Assembly (NCBI GenBank): GCA_002778785.1
Contig: PEZS01000002.1
Location: 39,108-103,107, forward strand
Direction: 5' to 3'
Source of the DNA: Bdellovibrionales bacterium CG10_big_fil_rev_8_21_14_0_10_45_34
Lineage (GTDB): Bacteria > Bdellovibrionota > Bdellovibrionia > Bdellovibrionales > 1-14-0-10-45-34
Length of the DNA stretch: 64,000 bases
This document shows positions 18,903 through 28,623 of this stretch, in pieces. Below the pieces are notes generated by a model. That model ran no database searches. It was given only the letters and a program-made list of their open reading frames with translations, and was not told the DNA's origin. Each line of letters opens with the position of its first letter. Position 1 is the first letter of the stretch. The position numbers and the translations under genes were made by a program.

Positions 18903-19709
18903 CTAAGGTGTGGCCTCTGGCTCTTCACTTGCCAACTTCTCAGCAGCTTTCTTATCTTTTATACTTTGAATTTTCTCTAAAAGAACCCTTTGAAAATCAC
19001 CAAGATTATCGTACTGGTTCACGACGGCAAGAAAAGCTTCGCCGTTATCGGCTTTAGCAGATGAAACATTCACTCCCTTTGGTAGGTAGGCTTCAGTCAC
19101 ATAAGGAACTAGTCCCAGCTTTTTGAGCGCTTGATTATTAAAGGAAATTCCTTCTTTCTCCAGTGCAAGATTCGTTTGATAGGCTTTAACTTCGCTGAAC
19201 AAAAGACTCGTGACGAAAAACTCCATTAACATTTCTTTTTCGTCGGAATCAACGTAACCAGCAATTCGTTTCTCTTTTATGGCCTTTGCCAATTCCTCCA
19301 TAGCTGCATTCACTTCTGGGTATTCTGCCATTACCGGCTTCATACTAATTTCGTCATAAATATGTGAGGTCTCATGGATGAGTGCATGAGCAAGTGAATC
19401 TGCATCAGCAGCTTGTGGCAAAAGAATCGAAAACGAGCCGTTTTCATTCTCTCTAATACCTCCTTGGTGACCTGATTCTGTTGCTGATTCGATTCCATCG
19501 ATACTGGCAATACTGCCGCTATTCTCTAAATTCTTAAGAACTGCAAGAGATTGGGCTCCAGTCGTTGTCGAGCTCAAGCGAGCCTTAGCTGCCGCCATCT
19601 TTTGCTCAAACGTTGGGGCTGGCTGCGGAGTCTGCTCATTTTTTTGACAACCCAGGAGACAGACGGTGCCGAATAGGGCCATAACACTCAGCGAATGTTT
19701 GATCTTCAT
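18903..19709 (-). CDS. Metallopeptidase-like lipoprotein (HExxH), fused in frame to a GH15 fragment
   Basis: From the ATG at 19707-19709, preceded by GAGGA, a 268-residue lipoprotein is encoded: signal MKIKHSLSVMALFGTV ending in LLGC, a Gln/Pro/Ala-rich linker, then HETSH (an HExxH zinc motif) in a helix followed by a Glu-rich segment that could supply the third ligand. The C-terminus is Lys/Glu-rich. No known peptidase family is certain. No stop codon separates it from the upstream GH15 fragment, so a 575-residue read-through is possible, but that would bury the signal peptide. Confidence 0.65.
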   Translation of the reverse strand: MKIKHSLSVMALFGTVCLLGCQKNEQTPQPAPTFEQKMAAAKARLSSTTTGAQSLAVLKNLENSGSIASIDGIESATESGHQGGIRENENGSFSILLPQAADADSLAHALIHETSHIYDEISMKPVMAEYPEVNAAMEELAKAIKEKRIAGYVDSDEKEMLMEFFVTSLLFSEVKAYQTNLALEKEGISFNNQALKKLGLVPYVTEAYLPKGVNVSSAKADNGEAFLAVVNQYDNLGDFQRVLLEKIQSIKDKKAAEKLASEEPEATP

Positions 19710-20618
19710 GCTATTTTCCTCACTTTCGCTGAACCTTTTGCAACGCTCGAGCATCGCGGTTGCTTCTTGAGAACTTCGCAAATATTTTTCTGCCAGCTCG
19801 TCGTTACCCAGTTTCTTTGCCAACTGGGCTCCCTTTTTCAACGCATTCCTCTGGACCAGAAGAGTCGCGTAGTGCCTTCCTAAAACCTCTTCCCAAATAT
19901 CAAATGTAAGGTCATTTAGCTTTTCAGAAACGTAATTGAGGTCGACGGTGCTAAATTCAAAGAAGAGCGAGGGGATTTCCTCTTCTCTACCTTGCTCAAT
20001 AAGATAGTCATACCATGCAAACATCGCCAACTGCCTGAGTGCTGGGCCGTCGTTTTGAGGCCTCCCCCAAGGATCCGTAAAGGGCTGCCCATCAAGATAG
20101 AATTTTGGTTGATGAAGATGAGCCTGATGAATCTTCGAAGTCGTTATGTAGCTTTTCACAAATTTCTCGATGTCAGTCGCTTGCTGTGCTGACAGTTTCT
20201 GCAAAGTCATAAGCCGAATGAGTGATTTTACGACGAGTGCGCCATCCCTCACCCAGTGAAAACGATAAATCTGCACTTTCTTTTCTGTGGGATCAAACGC
20301 TCCATGTGGTGCAGCCAAAATCGATCCCTCAAGATAGAATTCCCCCTCAGGAGGTTGCCACCTCTCGCCCTCGTTAATTCGTAGGTTGTAAAGCACTCTC
20401 GCTATCGAACTATGTAACCTGTGGTTTAGCTGTAGATCTAAAACTTCGACAAGAGGCAACTGAGCGCTTTGATCATTGGACTCTCCATCCGCCACTTCGT
20501 TGCCACTTTTTTGATTCTTTTCGTGAGCAGGCAAACTGCTCGCCGAGAAAACGAGACCTATAAAAACGCCTACTGCAAATCTAGAAAGCGCAAGATTCAA
20601 AAGCCTTCGCCAGTTCAT
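19710..20618 (-). pseudogene. GH15 glucoamylase, N-terminal half only
   Basis: The first about 300 residues of the open frame have a signal-like N-terminus and clear glucoamylase motifs: FHWVRDGALVVKSL, the DPWGRPQNDGPALR block, and DIWEEVLGRHYATLLVQRNAL, whose Glu pair includes the general acid in this family. The catalytic-base half, normally another 130-150 residues, is missing; similarity ends near SSQEATAMLERC and the frame runs straight into the lipoprotein ATG. It is best read as a truncated glucoamylase joined to the next gene by deletion. The ATG at 20618 fits an AGGGGTGG site. Confidence 0.7.
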
Positions 20619-20867
20619 AAGGAAATCCACCCCTTGTTGCGGTGGCTTGATATATCCAAGAATTTTGCTTCCGGGTACTGTAAAGGTTTCAATCCCATTT
20701 TTGTCGTTTCGTCAGTCTCGCAGAAAACTCCGACTCTAGAGATCTCGAAGTCCGGGAGATGGGAACTCGAAAAGAGGCTCGAAAAATTTGTATTTTTTTC
20801 AAGGCAGGTATCCCAAAGCGTTCAAAATAGGGTTTCAGGTCCGAAGTCATGATACTTTAGCCCTCAC

Positions 20868-21686
20868 ATGAGCACTTTTTCAAATATGAGCACAGCTAAA
20901 GAGATAGGCCCCATCTTCGATCGTGGCAATCGACTTGTAGACAACACCAACCACCGAGCCGAAGTCCGATCATCTTTAAACAACACTCAGCGCCAGGCCG
21001 AAGGCCAATCTTCTGTAAACTGGGATAATCTCAAAAATAGCTTGGATCTTTTAGGAAATGCTTTAAGGCATCTACCCCTCAAGCACCATTACTACAGCGA
21101 ACGAAGTGTAATGAACTACCTCGAGCATCCCATCGAGATTCAGCGCGCCGTAAGAGAGCGCCTCACTTCGTACTCACACCTCATTAACGAAATTGTACGC
21201 GAAAGAGCGGACATTACGAACAATACATTCGTCTTGAAGCGATGGCTCCAAAACTTAAAGCTTTCTACCCTCAATGAAATCTACGAACGCATCGAAGATG
21301 ATAATATCGTAGAGGTCTACAACGCCCAAGGTGTTCAGGTATTTAGGAGTATTCAATTTTTCTACTTTTGCAATTATGATTTACTCGACGTAGAAACGAG
21401 AGCGTGGAATGAGCTCTACGAGAGGCATGAACTAATTAACAACAGGCTTTTTGAAATTGTGTATGATCTATTTGCCAGTCCGAACAAGGTCTTTAATATC
21501 GATGTGCCTCCTCACCCGATGAGAGAAGTTTTTTCTGATTTTCGGCAAGTATTTCGGATTGAGCACAACTGCATGGCTCCGGTATATAATTCAGACTGCA
21601 GCCTATTTGGATTTGTGAGCAGCCAAAAGGCCACGACGATAACTCAAAACGATCCAGAAGATTCATTTCTATTTTTGAAAAGGTGA
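20868..21686 (+). CDS. Unknown protein preceding an XRE regulator
   Basis: This 272-residue, hydrophilic, mostly helical protein has no signal peptide, membrane segment or family that I recognise. It is Asn/Arg/Tyr-rich with a central aromatic patch (FFYFCNYD). Its stop overlaps the GTG start of the XRE gene by four bases, so the two are coupled and probably act together. The ATG at 20868 lacks a good ribosome-binding site; a second ATG at 20886 is in frame. Confidence 0.6.
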   Translation: MSTFSNMSTAKEIGPIFDRGNRLVDNTNHRAEVRSSLNNTQRQAEGQSSVNWDNLKNSLDLLGNALRHLPLKHHYYSERSVMNYLEHPIEIQRAVRERLTSYSHLINEIVRERADITNNTFVLKRWLQNLKLSTLNEIYERIEDDNIVEVYNAQGVQVFRSIQFFYFCNYDLLDVETRAWNELYERHELINNRLFEIVYDLFASPNKVFNIDVPPHPMREVFSDFRQVFRIEHNCMAPVYNSDCSLFGFVSSQKATTITQNDPEDSFLFLKR

Positions 21687-22024
21687 AAAGAGTGAAGAAA
21701 AAACGAACCGTTAAAACAGGAAGAAGCAGTGTGGTGCAAAAGGCCAAGCAGAAAAAGTGGAAAACTCTTGGGAACTACATCCGAAAGAAAAGAATTGAAT
21801 CAGGTTACTCTCAGGGTTCTGCCATGCGTCTGATCAATTCGCGGGCAACGACTCCGCAGTATTTGTCGAATATGGAGAGAGGGATTTGTGCAATCCCAGA
21901 TGATATTCTGCGAAAGATGATTTCTCTTTATAAGATCGACACAGACGAGTTTATCGAAGAGCTGCTTTCGATCGAAAAAAGCTGCCTCTACGACACGTTT
22001 AAAATTAAGAGCCGGGCCCAGTGA
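21683..22024 (+). CDS. XRE-family HTH regulator
   Basis: This 113-residue protein begins with a very basic N-terminus, then an HTH: LGNYIRKKRIESGYSQGSAM, QYLSNMERGICAIPDD and a helix LRKMISLYKID, the canonical XRE layout. The GTG start at 21683 overlaps the upstream TGA. The short C-terminal tail has no sensor domain, so the upstream partner may provide control. Confidence 0.8.
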   Translation: MKRVKKKRTVKTGRSSVVQKAKQKKWKTLGNYIRKKRIESGYSQGSAMRLINSRATTPQYLSNMERGICAIPDDILRKMISLYKIDTDEFIEELLSIEKSCLYDTFKIKSRAQ

Positions 22025-22115: not shown

Positions 22116-22250
22116 GACTTAAATAGCCTACAACTTGAGCCTTTAAGACTTAAATAGCCTACAACTTGAGCCTTTAAGACTTGAATAGCCTAATCCTTTT
22201 ATACCTAAGTATTTAAGACTTAAATAGCCTGCGCCTTTTAAAGACTTAGA
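22116..22250. repeat. Imperfect tandem repeats, 31-bp core
   Basis: Units beginning GACTTAAATAGCCT (or close variants) start at 22116, 22147, 22178, 22217 and 22243. The first two are nearly identical with an exact 31-bp period; later units are shortened or lengthened to 39 and 26 bp. The last unit overlaps the stop codon of the oxidase gene on the minus strand. Confidence 0.85.
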
Positions 22251-22941
22251 GGCTGAGTTCGCGTCCTTTGTTGGCAACTTTTGAGTCGCCTAAAGCCAAA
22301 TCTGCGATCTCATACATAAACTGATTGTAGGAATGCTCTGCTATCGCCATTGCTTTGCACACTCTGGCCTCCCTTACGGCCGAAAGCGATTCGAGAGTTT
22401 TCAGCGCTTTGTCAGCATGTCCCTCACCGGCGTGACCGGTGTCTTCTTCAACATGCACGATCATAAAAGTGCTGGCGTCGCGGCCATACTGTTTAACAAG
22501 CCGATCTGTTACTGGCGTACCAATGACTGTCGACAGACCCTCCAAATAGAGCACGCTTCCAAAAAGACAGATTGGATCTTCTCTTTCAATTAGGTAGTAA
22601 ATAGAGTGATAGAATTGAGCAATACTCGGCATTTCCGGAAAGTCATTGAGATCAAACCCTAGCTTTCTCAGATCACTAAGAGCCAATCTTTCATGAGCTT
22701 TTTCTTCTGCCGCATGCTGCATGCAGCGAAAGTGAAAAACATCATCTTCTATTCCAAAATTTGCACCAGCCAATGCGATCACGCGAGAAGCGTGACACAA
22801 GAAGTGATACATCTCACCCAACCAAAGCCCGTAATAGAGTTTATTTTCCCAAGGGGCATCCATAAACACTTTTGCTCCGGCGGCTACTGACTTTTCGTAC
22901 TGCTCGCTCAAAGATTTAGAGTACGGCTTCACTAAGTTCAT
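22246..22941 (-). CDS. Heme-oxygenase-fold iron redox enzyme (HDO-like)
   Basis: This 231-residue all-helical protein fits the iron-containing redox enzyme group of the heme-oxygenase/TenA fold. Acidic and His residues sit where diiron ligands are expected: Glu43 (WLGEMYHFLCH), Glu80 and His83 (EEKAHE), Glu134 (LYLEGLS) and Glu166 or Asp167 with His170 (VEEDTGH). Family members such as UndA, BesC and SznF oxidise small molecules, often carboxylates or amines. The gene starts 26 bp inside the upstream FeeM-like gene, with GGGAG upstream, so the two products likely share a pathway. Confidence 0.75.
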   Translation of the reverse strand: MNLVKPYSKSLSEQYEKSVAAGAKVFMDAPWENKLYYGLWLGEMYHFLCHASRVIALAGANFGIEDDVFHFRCMQHAAEEKAHERLALSDLRKLGFDLNDFPEMPSIAQFYHSIYYLIEREDPICLFGSVLYLEGLSTVIGTPVTDRLVKQYGRDASTFMIVHVEEDTGHAGEGHADKALKTLESLSAVREARVCKAMAIAEHSYNQFMYEIADLALGDSKVANKGRELSL

Positions 22942-23656
22942 AACTGATTTCTCCCTTTGTTTGTTTTTTCATACTGTTTGGAATTGCTATAGTATTTACA
23001 TCCGAACTAATGAGACGGCTAAAAACATCTTTGTACTTCGAAAGGGGATAAGTAATTACTTTCTCGCTTTCATACACGACCAAGTTTGCAAAGGTGTTGG
23101 CATATGGAACATCTTCTTTCATTGAAGTTGTTCCATATTTGGCGACAAGTTTATGGAGACCAACATCATTCCTAACAATCGAAATCATCTTAGGATGACC
23201 TAGGTCCTTGAATATTTTCACCACGAAGGTGTGAAACAGATAAATCGAAGGAAGATCATAAACCTTTAACCGATACCCCTTGTCGAGCGTGAATCCACTT
23301 GCGACGACAATACGCTCGGTGTCGCCAAACCCTGCGATGGAATCGCGATCCCATACTGATAGATAGGAGTCGTCTCGCGAGAAAAGGTAATTCATGTCGA
23401 GAAATCTCATGCAGGCAGTGGCTATGCACTTACCGTAGAGATCCAATGATAAGATGAGGCCCTGACGACAGAAGTTGTCTGAATATGCAGTTTCTGTTGC
23501 CTTGAATTGATTGAGCTCTCGGTACGCTTCAGTCCAGTTTTGCCTCCAAAGCTGATACGAGGATTCTAAGAAATTTTTGGTCTTAGGATTGCCATCAAAG
23601 GGAATCGCACTAAACCTCAATCCGTGGTAGAGCTTATTAATCTCCGAACTTTCCAT
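22916..23656 (-). CDS. FeeM-like N-acyltransferase (GNAT fold)
   Basis: This 246-residue protein resembles N-acyl amino acid synthases of the FeeM type, GNAT-fold enzymes that take acyl-ACP: a central ERIVVASGFTLDKGYR stretch, a hydrophobic IYLFHTFVVKIFKDLG helix and a final IVRNDVGLHKLVAKYG segment. FeeM proteins load a fatty acyl chain onto an amino acid or related amine. The overlap with the HDO-like gene suggests that the acyl product is then oxidised. The specific substrate is unknown. Confidence 0.65.
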   Translation of the reverse strand: MESSEINKLYHGLRFSAIPFDGNPKTKNFLESSYQLWRQNWTEAYRELNQFKATETAYSDNFCRQGLILSLDLYGKCIATACMRFLDMNYLFSRDDSYLSVWDRDSIAGFGDTERIVVASGFTLDKGYRLKVYDLPSIYLFHTFVVKIFKDLGHPKMISIVRNDVGLHKLVAKYGTTSMKEDVPYANTFANLVVYESEKVITYPLSKYKDVFSRLISSDVNTIAIPNSMKKQTKGEISYELSEAVL

Positions 23657-23848: not shown

Positions 23849-26800
23849 CTAGTTGATGGCAGGAGGAGTTGCGGCGCCTTCGGTAACCCCACTGGTGGGT
23901 CGGCCACGAGCAGGCCTTTCCACAACTAGTCCTGCTGCTGAAGGGCTCTTGAATCTACTAACTATTTTCTGAACTGCGCGACTGAGAAGTGTTTTGGACT
24001 CGTCATTCACCACAAGAAAACACGGCAAAACGAACAGTGTTGATAAGGTGGAGACAACAAGCCCCCACCCAAGAGAAAACGTTATTGGTTGAGCGGTTGC
24101 AGATTCTCCAAAAAGGCCATATGCAGTCGGAAACACCCCCGCCCAGGTTGTAACAGAGGTCAAAAATATTGCCCTCAGTCTATCAGGCGCACCAGTTACG
24201 ACGGCCTCTCTAAATGTTGGTTTACCACGACTCACTTCCCTGATTCTATGAACCATTACTATGCTATCGTTGACCGCCACTCCAATGACTCCCAGCAGTC
24301 CGATAATCGACATAATCGTTAGAGTGTGACCATGCGCCCACAATACCCAGAACACACCAGAAACCGCCAAAGGAATGGGAAGCGCTACAATCATACCCGT
24401 AGTCAACGATCGAAATGTTAGAAAGAGAATCGTCAAGACGAGAACTAAGCAAGTGGCTAATACCTCGAGCGACCAATTGCGATTTTCTGTTTCACTGCGA
24501 TTGCCATCTTCCACTCTTACATTGAGACCCGCGAAACGATCTTTAATTTGATCAACGAGCTTTGCCAACTCTAGCTTGGCAGATTCAGCATTCAGTGTGG
24601 CCGAATCAAATTCGAACTGGGCTTGCTCTATTCTAGATCCGCCCTCACGCTTCAATTCTTTTAGCTCTTCGTGAAGCTCCCAATGACCTAGTTGGTTCAA
24701 CGAAACTGGTCGACCAAATTTGCCCATTATTTTAATGGTGTCGATGTTCTCGACCACCGCTCTTTCGTTTGCCCCCTGCGTTTCAAGATAGAGAACAACT
24801 TCTTCATCATTCACTATTTGGCGCGAAACTTCGCTAGGAGTAAAAACCGGTGCTAAACTTTGCGTAAGATCGCTGCGCGTGATGTTATACTTCGCAAGCG
24901 CCGCCTCGTCGGGATAAAAAATCCACTGAGGAGTGCTCTTTTTACTGCGATCCTTGTAGTATGTAATTCCACTGAGATTTTGTTGCGAAATTTCTTCGCG
25001 AAACTTTCTAAGCGCACCCGCATCAGATCCTTCCGCTGTAACCGAAACCAGGTTTTTGGCAACTCCTTCATCGCCCCTTTTTCTCTCCTCAATGGCAATC
25101 TCTTCAAAAATGTCTTGATTCCACCCTTTAGAAATTTCATTCAAACTTTCCACTAGTTTTTTCTTAACTCGCGAAGGCCACAAAGCTTCGGCGTCGATAT
25201 TAACAATGACCTGACCATACTGCGGTCCCTTAAACTCTTCACCGTTGCGCCATAAGCCGCCAATTGGAACAAAAATACTCTCAGAAACATCCCGCGAAGA
25301 TTCGACAATCGATGAAACCATAGGCTGAAGTAACTGCCGCGTTTGAGCTAACGATTCGGTGTGTTTGAGCACAAAATAGACGCGAACTTGTTCGCTTCCG
25401 ATACTGATGTTGAAGCTATGCTGAAGTTTCTTAGCAACCACCCACCCAGAACCAACAATAAACAATAGGCTACCTAACAAAACCAAATAGCGAAAGCGTA
25501 GAGCTCTTTGCAAACCATTAGTATAAACTCGTCGGAACGATTCAAATAGCCTTTTGGACCTATCGCGCGGAGGTGTTTTCACGAAATGAGCCAGATGGTT
25601 TGGTAGCAAAAAGAATGATTCAAACCAGCTCACTATAAGTGCGGCTCCAATCACTATAGGAATTGGCGCCAAAAACTGAGTCATAGAACTTTTCAAAAAT
25701 AAAACCGGCAAGAATGCCGCGATTGTCGTTAGAATTGTGCCACTTACGGGTACAATCAACTCTCTACTTGCTTGTCTTGCCGATTCATAAGGGCCCAAAC
25801 CCTCTGAACGCAAAGTTGTATACCTTTCAGATACAATGATCGCATCATCAACGAGAATGCCAACTACAACAATCATTCCGATAAGCGTGAGTAGGTCAAC
25901 CGCCATACCCAGGGCGTTCATGAGTAGCAGTGTGCCCGCGTAGGCTAGCGGAATCCCCCACGCTGTGATAAGTGCTACTCGAAAACTTAAGAATAGCATG
26001 AGCACGATCAATACTAAAAGGAAGCCCACGACTCCGTTCGTCTTTAATACGCTAAGTTGGCTGAGCAAAAACTGAGGTCCGTCGCCGACGCTTACCAGCG
26101 TTACCCCCTCGGGTAGATCCTTTTTAGCCTCTTCTATTTTCTTATTGAGCTTTTCGAGTGTAGAAAACGAGTCGCCTTCGACAGATTTGAACATCTGGAT
26201 CCAAACGGCGTCGTCTCCGTAATAGAGCCATACCATACTTTCAGGAGGAAGCTTGTAGTCAACTTTTGCAAGGTCTTCAAGCCGAATAGATTGCCCTGTC
26301 CGATTGGACTCTATAGGTATATCGCGCAACTTTTTAAGATCAAACTTCGGCTCCGACAGTGAGACGCTCACAGTGCCGCCATCCTCGAAGTAAAGATTAG
26401 CAACCGGCGCACTCGTTAGATTGTCTGAGATAGCTTTACGGACTTGCAGTATCGTCAGTTCAAGCATCTTAAGTTTTTGTTGATCAATCTCAATAAATAT
26501 ATCGCGACCAGGAATATAAGCGTCAACGCGAGCAACGCCGTCGCTTGTGCTCAGTTTTCTTTCAATCTTTTTAACGGCCATCCTGTGCTGATCATTTTTG
26601 GAATCTAAGCCCAAGAAAACATAGCTAGCCAAATAGATTTCTCGAGTTTTGTTTTGCTCGACCCGAATTTTTCGTACGTTCTGAGGCAGTTTAAAGCCAA
26701 TCTCTTCAATCTTTTGACGGGCCTCTTCTACTACCTCGAGCATGTTTTCAACGCTATAAGGAAAATCCATTTCAATGCGAACACTAGCAGCGGAGCTCGT

Positions 26801-27049
26801 CGACCTCATTGACTTTAAGTTGGGCAGCGATCTTAAGGCATCTTCTAAAGGTGTAGCGATCAATCGCTCGATCTCCGTTGCCGACGCCGAGGGCAACTCT
26901 GCCGTTACAACAATCGATCGCGAGTCAAAGGGTGGGTGCAGATCTTTTTTAATGTTCAAAAGTACAAAGACACCGACAAGGATAATGCCGACCGCTAAAA
27001 AATTAACGAGCTTCGAATCGTTGAGAAAGTAATCAAGGGCTCTTTTCAA
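23849..27049 (-). CDS. RND-family efflux permease
   Basis: About 1066 residues with the twelve-helix RND layout: one N-terminal helix, a large periplasmic porter domain, six helices, a second porter domain and five more helices. Helix 4 has GILVDDAIIV, the paired Asp residues that carry protons, and helix 10 has GVAVNDSIVMVHRI. It belongs to the AcrB/HAE-type branch and exports drugs or lipidic molecules. The TTG at 27049 overlaps the TolC-like TGA and lies five bases after a G6 tract; a TTG at 27064 is an alternative. No membrane-fusion protein gene lies nearby. Confidence 0.9.
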   Translation of the reverse strand: MKRALDYFLNDSKLVNFLAVGIILVGVFVLLNIKKDLHPPFDSRSIVVTAELPSASATEIERLIATPLEDALRSLPNLKSMRSTSSAASVRIEMDFPYSVENMLEVVEEARQKIEEIGFKLPQNVRKIRVEQNKTREIYLASYVFLGLDSKNDQHRMAVKKIERKLSTSDGVARVDAYIPGRDIFIEIDQQKLKMLELTILQVRKAISDNLTSAPVANLYFEDGGTVSVSLSEPKFDLKKLRDIPIESNRTGQSIRLEDLAKVDYKLPPESMVWLYYGDDAVWIQMFKSVEGDSFSTLEKLNKKIEEAKKDLPEGVTLVSVGDGPQFLLSQLSVLKTNGVVGFLLVLIVLMLFLSFRVALITAWGIPLAYAGTLLLMNALGMAVDLLTLIGMIVVVGILVDDAIIVSERYTTLRSEGLGPYESARQASRELIVPVSGTILTTIAAFLPVLFLKSSMTQFLAPIPIVIGAALIVSWFESFFLLPNHLAHFVKTPPRDRSKRLFESFRRVYTNGLQRALRFRYLVLLGSLLFIVGSGWVVAKKLQHSFNISIGSEQVRVYFVLKHTESLAQTRQLLQPMVSSIVESSRDVSESIFVPIGGLWRNGEEFKGPQYGQVIVNIDAEALWPSRVKKKLVESLNEISKGWNQDIFEEIAIEERKRGDEGVAKNLVSVTAEGSDAGALRKFREEISQQNLSGITYYKDRSKKSTPQWIFYPDEAALAKYNITRSDLTQSLAPVFTPSEVSRQIVNDEEVVLYLETQGANERAVVENIDTIKIMGKFGRPVSLNQLGHWELHEELKELKREGGSRIEQAQFEFDSATLNAESAKLELAKLVDQIKDRFAGLNVRVEDGNRSETENRNWSLEVLATCLVLVLTILFLTFRSLTTGMIVALPIPLAVSGVFWVLWAHGHTLTIMSIIGLLGVIGVAVNDSIVMVHRIREVSRGKPTFREAVVTGAPDRLRAIFLTSVTTWAGVFPTAYGLFGESATAQPITFSLGWGLVVSTLSTLFVLPCFLVVNDESKTLLSRAVQKIVSRFKSPSAAGLVVERPARGRPTSGVTEGAATPPAIN

Positions 27050-28551
27050 CTTTGCCCCCCGCAAATCGGCTGCTCACTTTTATCTTGGACCAACATAGTA
27101 AGTAAAGACGCCCAAAGCTCCGAAATTGCTAGTAGACGATCCACGCTTTGTCTTACGAATTGGTCGCGATAGTTCAAATAATCTGTGTATTCCATTTGAC
27201 CGCGAAGTAGCCTTGCCATTGCGACAGGCACCTGCGAGGAAGCAAGCGTTCTTCTTTCATCGAGCAATTTAATTCGCTCTTTGAGAGTTTGAATTTTTTG
27301 AATAGCTATGGCGATTGCCTGGGCAACCTGCCGCAATTCCCGCTTCATGAGTTCTTCTTTTAATAGTTTATTTTTGTACGCATGTGCTTCATCACGGGAC
27401 GGCTCCTTGTCAAAAATTGAAAAGTCCATCCCGATTCCTACCTTTACGACATCTTCTCGAAAACCAATATCGATATTAGAAAGGTTACTGCCGCCCGTAT
27501 TTACTACCGACCTTTGGTTCCCTTCGCTTCGAGATGCTTCGGCGAAAAGATCCACTTTTGCTCTCGATGCACTTCTAACGGATTCATATTGCTTTTCAGC
27601 TTGCTGTGCCTCCATGTTAGCGGCTTGTACGCCTACAGTATCTTGTGCTTCTAACTTCGGCACGTTCAAACTCAAGAGAAAACTCTCAGGGCTCTCGAGC
27701 GAACCCATGTGACTTTCATAGAAGGACTTTAGCTTTGTGAAGGCGTTACGTTTATTTTGATCTGCGATTAGCCAGCTTTCTTTCGATCGATTGGCATCAA
27801 TCCTAGCGCTGCTCCAAGCTAGCCGCGACAATAGCCCCTGCTGAAAGGCCTGTTTAACAGCTGCTTCGGCCCTATCTGCATCTTTAAGGAGATTCTCTTC
27901 GAGTTTAAACCTTTGCTCAGAAACCCATGCATCAACAAAAATGCTGACCCCATCGAGACACGCCTGCTTGCCAGCAATCCGCGCTTTCAGCGTGTTTGCC
28001 TTATAAAGAAACTCTGCAGCTTCGAGTTGCATCCGATCACTGAAGCCAAAACCGTTTCGCCACAACGACTGCGTGAGACGAGCAGAACTACGGTTTTCGA
28101 CGAAGTAAAGAGACGGATAAGAGCCGTCATTAAAGAACTTTTCAAAGTTGAAATCTAAAGTTGTTCCAGTGGGTAGACTTTGACTAACTCCAATGGAGGC
28201 GTCGTGCACATTGCCCATTATCGCCTGAAACTGGGTTGAAGATTCTTGGTGACTGGTTCCGCCGCCTACCCTTAAGCGTGATTTGTAGAGGTTGTCTGAT
28301 CTCTCAAAGTTTAGAGTCGCCATCTCATAGTTGAATTCGCTGATTTTAAGGCCTTCCGCCTTGATTAAATACTCTTTCAAAAATTCTTGTAGATCTAGCT
28401 TAGGTGCACTCGCTGGATTTTGATTGGATGGACTCGCTTGATTTAGCTTAGTTGCACTCGCTTCTGCCTCGGGTTTAACCCCGGGGCCTTTTTCAGCCAT
28501 AGCATGCTGCGCTGTTAGAATCAGGAGGGCCAGTACGATGTGACCAAACAT
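27046..28551 (-). CDS. TolC-family outer-membrane efflux protein
   Basis: About 501 residues from the ATG at 28551, which starts a normal signal peptide (MFGHIVLALLILTAQHAMA); an open frame extends 24 codons further but without one. Two repeats of long coiled-coil helices with short beta strands (for example GVSQSLPTGTTLDFNF and VGIGMDFSIFDK) give the TolC trimer pattern. It is coupled to the RND permease by overlap and forms the outer-membrane channel of that pump. Confidence 0.85.
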   Translation of the reverse strand: MFGHIVLALLILTAQHAMAEKGPGVKPEAEASATKLNQASPSNQNPASAPKLDLQEFLKEYLIKAEGLKISEFNYEMATLNFERSDNLYKSRLRVGGGTSHQESSTQFQAIMGNVHDASIGVSQSLPTGTTLDFNFEKFFNDGSYPSLYFVENRSSARLTQSLWRNGFGFSDRMQLEAAEFLYKANTLKARIAGKQACLDGVSIFVDAWVSEQRFKLEENLLKDADRAEAAVKQAFQQGLLSRLAWSSARIDANRSKESWLIADQNKRNAFTKLKSFYESHMGSLESPESFLLSLNVPKLEAQDTVGVQAANMEAQQAEKQYESVRSASRAKVDLFAEASRSEGNQRSVVNTGGSNLSNIDIGFREDVVKVGIGMDFSIFDKEPSRDEAHAYKNKLLKEELMKRELRQVAQAIAIAIQKIQTLKERIKLLDERRTLASSQVPVAMARLLRGQMEYTDYLNYRDQFVRQSVDRLLAISELWASLLTMLVQDKSEQPICGGQS

Positions 28552-28623
28552 GAGATTTTCTACCGGGGAAAACCCCGAGACAACACTCTGTTCGGTCTGA
28601 ATTGTAAAAAATACATCCACCAA

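Follow-up and report, generated by a model that had tools for sequence, protein, structure and literature searches.

The window, the whole 64,000-nucleotide stretch of DNA analyzed here, carries a pair of overlapping genes on its minus strand, designated G and H, and a second pair on the plus strand, designated R and T. Gene G (22916-23656, minus strand) precedes H and encodes a 246-aa protein predicted to be a GNAT acyltransferase of LuxI/FeeM fold, based on its open reading frame, an AlphaFold model, fold matches and a 37-member alignment. Gene H (22246-22941, minus strand) encodes a 231-aa putative heme-oxygenase-like diiron oxidase (HDO), assigned from a PF14518 match, an AlphaFold model, its fold and the conservation of its ligands. 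The stop region of G overlaps the start of H by 26 bp (22916-22941, minus strand). This overlap had been described in an earlier note on this DNA, and the coordinates of both open reading frames agree with it. A Shine-Dalgarno-like sequence, GGGAGAAATCAGTT (GGGAG), lies 5' of the ATG of H, and the two genes share a strand in 27 of the 28 cassette copies that were examined separately. The overlap likely reflects translational coupling.

Gene R (20868-21686, plus strand) encodes a 272-aa candidate PAS-like sensor from a family without prior annotation, recognized as a conserved neighbor and by a PAS profile match. Gene T (21683-22024, plus strand) encodes a small 113-aa protein of the Cro/C1-type HTH family (PF01381, E 3.1e-5). 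The start of T overlaps the stop of R by 4 bp, and an R-T overlap is also present at locus L202. In the window, R-T is convergent with G-H. Between T and H, three tandem-like repeats of 31-39 nt (GACTTAAATAGCCTACAACTTGAGCCTTTAA), two of them identical copies, were found at 22116-22248. RND permease and outer-membrane efflux genes (23849-28623, minus strand; RND efflux genes at 23849-27064) are found immediately upstream of G and share its strand. RND efflux was considered as a part of the cassette and rejected, since these genes adjoin it only in the window and in L084 and are not conserved. Another open reading frame (18903-20630, minus strand) combines a glycoside hydrolase family 15 domain (residues 122-333), an internal lipoprotein-like signal (MKIKHSLSVMALFGTVCLLGC) and a tail with weak similarity to peptidases. 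Two genes may have fused here, or a stop codon may have been lost.

The AlphaFold model of G has a pLDDT of 90.2. AHL synthases are among its best fold matches, including RpaI (Z 15.9, 199 residues), BjaI (Z 15.8) and LasI (Z 14.0), and the model also matches FeeM (2g0b; Z 14.9, rmsd 3.1, 168 residues). Residues W37, F62 and R162 are nearly invariant in the 37-member alignment. G diverges fast, with aligned members sharing 10-26% identity with the window G. No Pfam or NCBIfam family matches G. The FeeM model PF21926, which does work on other proteins, matches 0 of the 37 G members at E<=0.1, and the AHL synthase model PF00765 matches none of the 37 either. Profile comparisons of G with FeeM (probability 55% over 54 columns) and with LuxI (probability 27%) are both weak. 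The earlier note had described the product of G as a FeeM-type GNAT enzyme. The fold matches to FeeM and RpaI agree with this description, but membership of the FeeM family is ruled out at the sequence-family level by the PF21926 result. On the model and the alignment, G is predicted to have the AHL-synthase/FeeM fold and to lie outside both sequence families.

H matches Pfam PF14518 above the cut-off (E 1.6e-9). Its AlphaFold model (pLDDT 91.9) matches 3dde from Shewanella (Z 22.0), CADD 1rcw (Z 20.1), HrmI (Z 19.8) and UndA (Z 18.6), with 3dde being the closest solved relative, and the model and these structural matches show the seven-helix heme-oxygenase fold. Judged from the sequence and the fold overlay, the metal site of H contains a complete three-His/three-carboxylate ligand set (E80, H83, E134, H163, D167 and H170), the set that defines most HDOs (PMC13108848). 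Residues E80, H83, E134, H163 and D167 are kept in 56/56 aligned H relatives, and the HxxxDxxH motif (H163, D167 and H170) is found in all 56 by pattern. The window H has a five-residue insertion directly after H170, so a plain column count misplaces this residue. A heme-oxygenase fold with a metal site had been predicted for H before, and the full ligand set and the match to UndA bear this out. The ligands listed at that time need revision. E80, H83, E134, D167 and H170 stand, H163 had been omitted, and Glu43 and Glu166 are to be removed: position 43 is Gln in 52 of the 56 relatives and position 166 is Glu in only 40, which excludes both as conserved primary ligands. H is accordingly graded here as a predicted heme-oxygenase-like diiron protein with a complete metal-ligand set, as read from the alignment and the model.

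A match to H was detected in 43 of 59 genomes of the same order. In the loci fetched from related genomes, after profile searches, G is adjacent to every one of the H-bearing ORF hits (44/44). The neighborhood search for a fused pair that the earlier note had suggested returned one natural G-H fusion of 455 aa, in a single genome. The G-H pairing greatly exceeds what chance would produce, and other genomes keep the pair, as the proposed partnership of the two genes had implied. A scan of named genomes with the H protein gave no relatives.

All-against-all clustering of the genes around 20 loci was used to count shared families. Generic histidine kinases aside, only G, H, R and T are common to loci beyond the genus level. 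The view of a two-enzyme unit held previously is therefore too narrow, as the cassette also holds R and T, an exchangeable oxidase and a common C-terminal tail. Members of the R family are approximately 160-270 aa in length. R is a conserved neighbor at 17 of the 20 loci, and 45 of 57 genomes contain it. It matches no family in Pfam or NCBIfam, and no output domain was found in it. The C-terminal half of R gives a weak hhalign match to PAS domains of the same genome (probability 55%, E 1.2e-4, 94 of 104 PAS columns), and PAS_9 matches occur in 4 of 18 R members, all below threshold. R and T abut or overlap, and just 16 of 33 cassettes have a T-type gene close to G. L207, L208 and L210 carry G and H without R or T.

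The distribution of R follows that of G. Within the order, 44 of 57 genomes have both genes, 11 have neither and two have one. Across the phylum, both are present in 69 of 240 genomes and absent from 149, with 13 genomes having G only and nine R only (Fisher p 2e-36, uncorrected for species phylogeny). The G, H and R trees correlate, likewise uncorrected for species phylogeny. G is patchy (82/240 phylum genomes), and several families within the phylum have the cassette. Plasmid pBdHM1 of Bdellovibrio sp. HM001 also carries G, H and R, each annotated as hypothetical. Genome G030 carries R, G and H in this order on a single strand, together with five more R copies elsewhere (six in total), one of them adjoining a T. 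These additional copies, which have no G beside them, resemble unpaired receivers. The same genome has a second G without H or R, beside a glutathione-S-transferase-like gene (L196 2831-4271). No shared operator was identified; only short repeats occur upstream of R and G, and the promoter scan was at chance level. A defense or phage origin of the cassette was considered and rejected, as G, H and R have no PADLOC family, PHROGs gives only a generic HTH for T, and no phage record contains H.

The slot of H is occupied by other oxidases at several loci. In L243 and L244, a FAD_binding_4 flavoprotein gene of VAO/PCMH type directly follows and overlaps G and is convergent with R. The best solved matches of the L244 flavoprotein are 4-cresol dehydrogenase and vanillyl-alcohol oxidase. 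In L236 (1565-3877), one polypeptide of 770 aa combines G with a FAD domain of vanillyl-alcohol-oxidase type, and the genome concerned has no H or R matches. A fatty-acid desaturase fills the H slot in L198 and L245. Desaturases also occur alongside H in L092, L093 and L204, and without H in L098, L240 and L241. In L096, a methyltransferase-like gene follows H. Some H-less cassettes (e.g., L196, L197, L200 and L247) have no identified oxidase. A cytochrome P450 gene lies beside R and T on a G-bearing contig (L246 1766-3190) and is perhaps another exchangeable oxidase. Exchange of the oxidase would be expected if the acyl product of G is oxidized in different ways from lineage to lineage. That desaturases can replace H hints at oxidation on the acyl chain, whereas lineages with the vanillyl-alcohol-oxidase type may use a phenolic amine.

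G, H and most of the replacement enzymes end in a short Lys/Arg-x-Ala-Ala-like C-terminus, which is absent from R. A C-terminal Ala is present in 68% of G, 67% of H and 3% of R proteins, compared with 7% of the control set of 463 other ORFs at the same loci. A C-terminal Ala-Ala is present in 32% of G and 53% of H proteins, compared with 2% of the control. Among the other tailoring enzymes of the cassettes (replacement oxidases and a methyltransferase), 10 of 13 end in Ala (Fisher p 2e-9, with related sequences not independent), with tails such as KVAA, KFAA, KRVA, TKAA and KKLAA. The tail is not a by-product of the G/H overlap, a reading that was ruled out because H, divergent G, lone G and replacement oxidases carry it too. 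In the window, G ends in EAVL and H in ELSL. Neither has the tail, which leaves the window copy, in its present form, outside this part of the model.

In the mechanism proposed here, acyl-ACP or acyl-CoA would supply a fatty-acyl group, which G, like other enzymes with its fold, would transfer to the amino group of an amino acid or small amine. H, coupled to G, would then oxidize the acyl-amide (by desaturation, hydroxylation or cleavage) using its diiron site and O2. The product would be bound and sensed by the PAS-like R, which would act on transcription through T as its DNA-binding HTH partner, a link between R and T that is suggested by gene neighborhood. In most relatives, the ssrA-like tails may lead to fast removal of the biosynthetic enzymes by AAA+ proteases, allowing tight control of the product. 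Swapping of the oxidase would give a different product in each lineage, as expected of a diversifying signal. These four assignments (N-acyltransferase for G, oxidase of the G product for H, sensor for R and DNA-binding partner for T) are proposed from the TyzA precedent described below and from the substrates of characterized HDOs, which are mostly fatty or amino acids (PMC13108848). Collectively, we read G-H-R-T as one modular regulated cassette that makes oxidized acyl-amides and senses its product through R and T, with a probability of approximately 0.45. The logic of acylation followed by oxidation is, as a part of this reading, quite probable. A signaling cassette is plausible, and the signaling role itself falls somewhat short of likely. 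More tentative is the broader proposal of a new cell-cell or self-signaling system of the Bdellovibrionota, which would consist of a LuxI/FeeM-fold synthase, an interchangeable oxidase that sets the identity of the product (HDO, desaturase or VAO-type), a PAS-like receptor with an HTH protein, and a common degradation tag.

Other explanations of the cassette were weighed against this reading. G and H could make a structural or membrane aminolipid, namely an oxidized N-acyl amino acid, with R and T tuning its level to the membrane or redox state. Redox state is commonly sensed by PAS domains, and the exchange of desaturases with H would fit tailoring of an acyl chain. Membrane components and biosurfactants are known among N-acyl amino acids and aminolipids (PMC11631085, PMC8762209). 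However, ssrA-like tails on the enzymes, presence in only about a third of the phylum genomes, the fast divergence of G and a location on a Bdellovibrio plasmid would all be unusual for a bulk lipid pathway, and we regard this explanation as unlikely. Somewhat less likely still is a specialized metabolite, such as an antimicrobial or predation factor, whose producer regulates itself by sensing the product and which is not a cell-cell signal. Characterized HDOs belong mainly to natural-product pathways (PMC13108848), and RND efflux genes lie beside the cassette in the window and in L084, as well as in the related Aestuariibacter cluster L159. Against this, most cassettes do not keep RND genes beside them, and the many lone R genes per genome, as in G030, are easier to explain as receivers than as one gene for resistance or feedback.

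The fold matches of G raise the question of whether it makes true acyl-homoserine lactones, which H would modify, as AHL synthases are its best structural matches. This is very improbable. Apart from the lack of PF00765 matches among the G members, the invariant Glu and Arg of the LuxI WELSRF motif align to non-conserved residues of G, making an AHL product unlikely, although the profile alignment itself is weak (probability 27%). The LuxR autoinducer-binding domain (PF03472) was found in 0 of 57 genomes of the order, and a PF00765 search of the same 57 genomes gave no clear LuxI. Both searches rule out a canonical LuxI/LuxR system in the order. Two weak partial PF00765 matches were seen in other proteins (L211 and L212, 281-aa frames of genomes G026 and G017). 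For the C-terminal tail, which is shared by unrelated enzymes of one pathway, the best explanation from the sequences is a common proteolytic tag or, alternatively, a docking tag. As docking tags, the Lys/Arg-x-Ala-Ala tails would gather G, the oxidase and other tailoring enzymes and would not be degrons. Their occurrence on unrelated enzyme families of the same cassette would suit docking, as would the fused G-H protein, which carries the tail at its end only. The tails nevertheless resemble the end of the tmRNA tags of the same genomes, which finish in LAA (ALAA), a known protease signal, and docking is considered rather improbable. The regulated cassette for an oxidized, sensed acyl-amide is the reading preferred here.

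If this reading is right, the cassette would be a genetically tractable candidate for the own chemical communication of this order of predatory bacteria, with a synthase, a tailoring enzyme and a receptor that can each be tested. It would also add a new class of HDO substrates, suggest a principle of exchangeable tailoring enzymes for diversifying an acyl product, and represent a rare case of unrelated enzymes carrying one C-terminal tag through their common pathway. A literature search confined largely to open-access papers found no description of FeeM together with an iron-containing redox enzyme, of a C-terminal degron on an AHL synthase, or of such a cassette.

Several known systems share parts of this architecture. 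H has the fold and the complete 3-His/3-carboxylate set in common with UndA, CADD, HrmI, MboA and 3dde, the last being its closest solved relative, with no function assigned. It differs from other HDOs in its obligate G partner and in belonging to a subgroup of its own, marked by Gln at position 43. The nearest HDO relatives outside the phylum also adjoin acyltransferase-type genes. In a separate, uncharacterized operon of Pseudomonadota, a FeeM-family (PF21926) gene occurs with a 3dde-type HDO and DUF3419 (Aestuariibacter and Deefgea; L159 4692-8820, L218 6206-9104), and the Deefgea operon includes a SAM decarboxylase too. L159 and L160 yielded no R or T. One operon on Pantoea and Vibrio plasmids encodes a thermostable-hemolysin-family protein, an AMP-binding enzyme (AMP-ligase), an HDO and an SDR (L219 5816-9972; L220 3925-8076). 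We take the thermostable-hemolysin family to have a GNAT fold, and by analogy these so-called thermostable hemolysins may be biosynthetic acyltransferases. Both operons resemble the cassette in having an HDO beside an acyltransferase-type gene, but the acyltransferase families and the companion genes are different. Within the phylum, FeeM-family proteins are other, longer proteins than G, which resembles FeeM in fold, and a separate HDO clade lies beside them without tails. Acyltransferase-HDO neighbors in several groups suggest that this partnership originated, or was retained, on more than one occasion. The G-H-R-T arrangement was encountered only in Bdellovibrionota, with G and R searched for within the phylum.

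The cassette is similar to LuxI/LuxR systems in the synthase fold shared by G, in the adjacency of synthase and putative receptor or regulator genes, and in the extra unpaired receivers. It departs from LuxI/LuxR in that PF00765 does not match it, the order has no LuxR-type receptor, an oxidative enzyme accompanies the synthase, and the sensor and the HTH protein are separate. The closest biochemical precedent, by analogy, is TyzA of Mycobacterium, which N-acylates Tyr/Phe, has FeeM and BjaI as its nearest folds by DALI, and is encoded next to an oxidative tailoring enzyme (PMC10404671). The Tyz system (TyzA with TyzB/TyzC; PMC10404671) is like G-H in placing an acyltransferase of AHL-synthase/FeeM fold and then an oxidative tailoring enzyme in one cluster, and the nearest folds of TyzA are shared by G. 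The Tyz oxidase belongs to the flavin nitroreductase family, whereas the corresponding enzyme here is an HDO.
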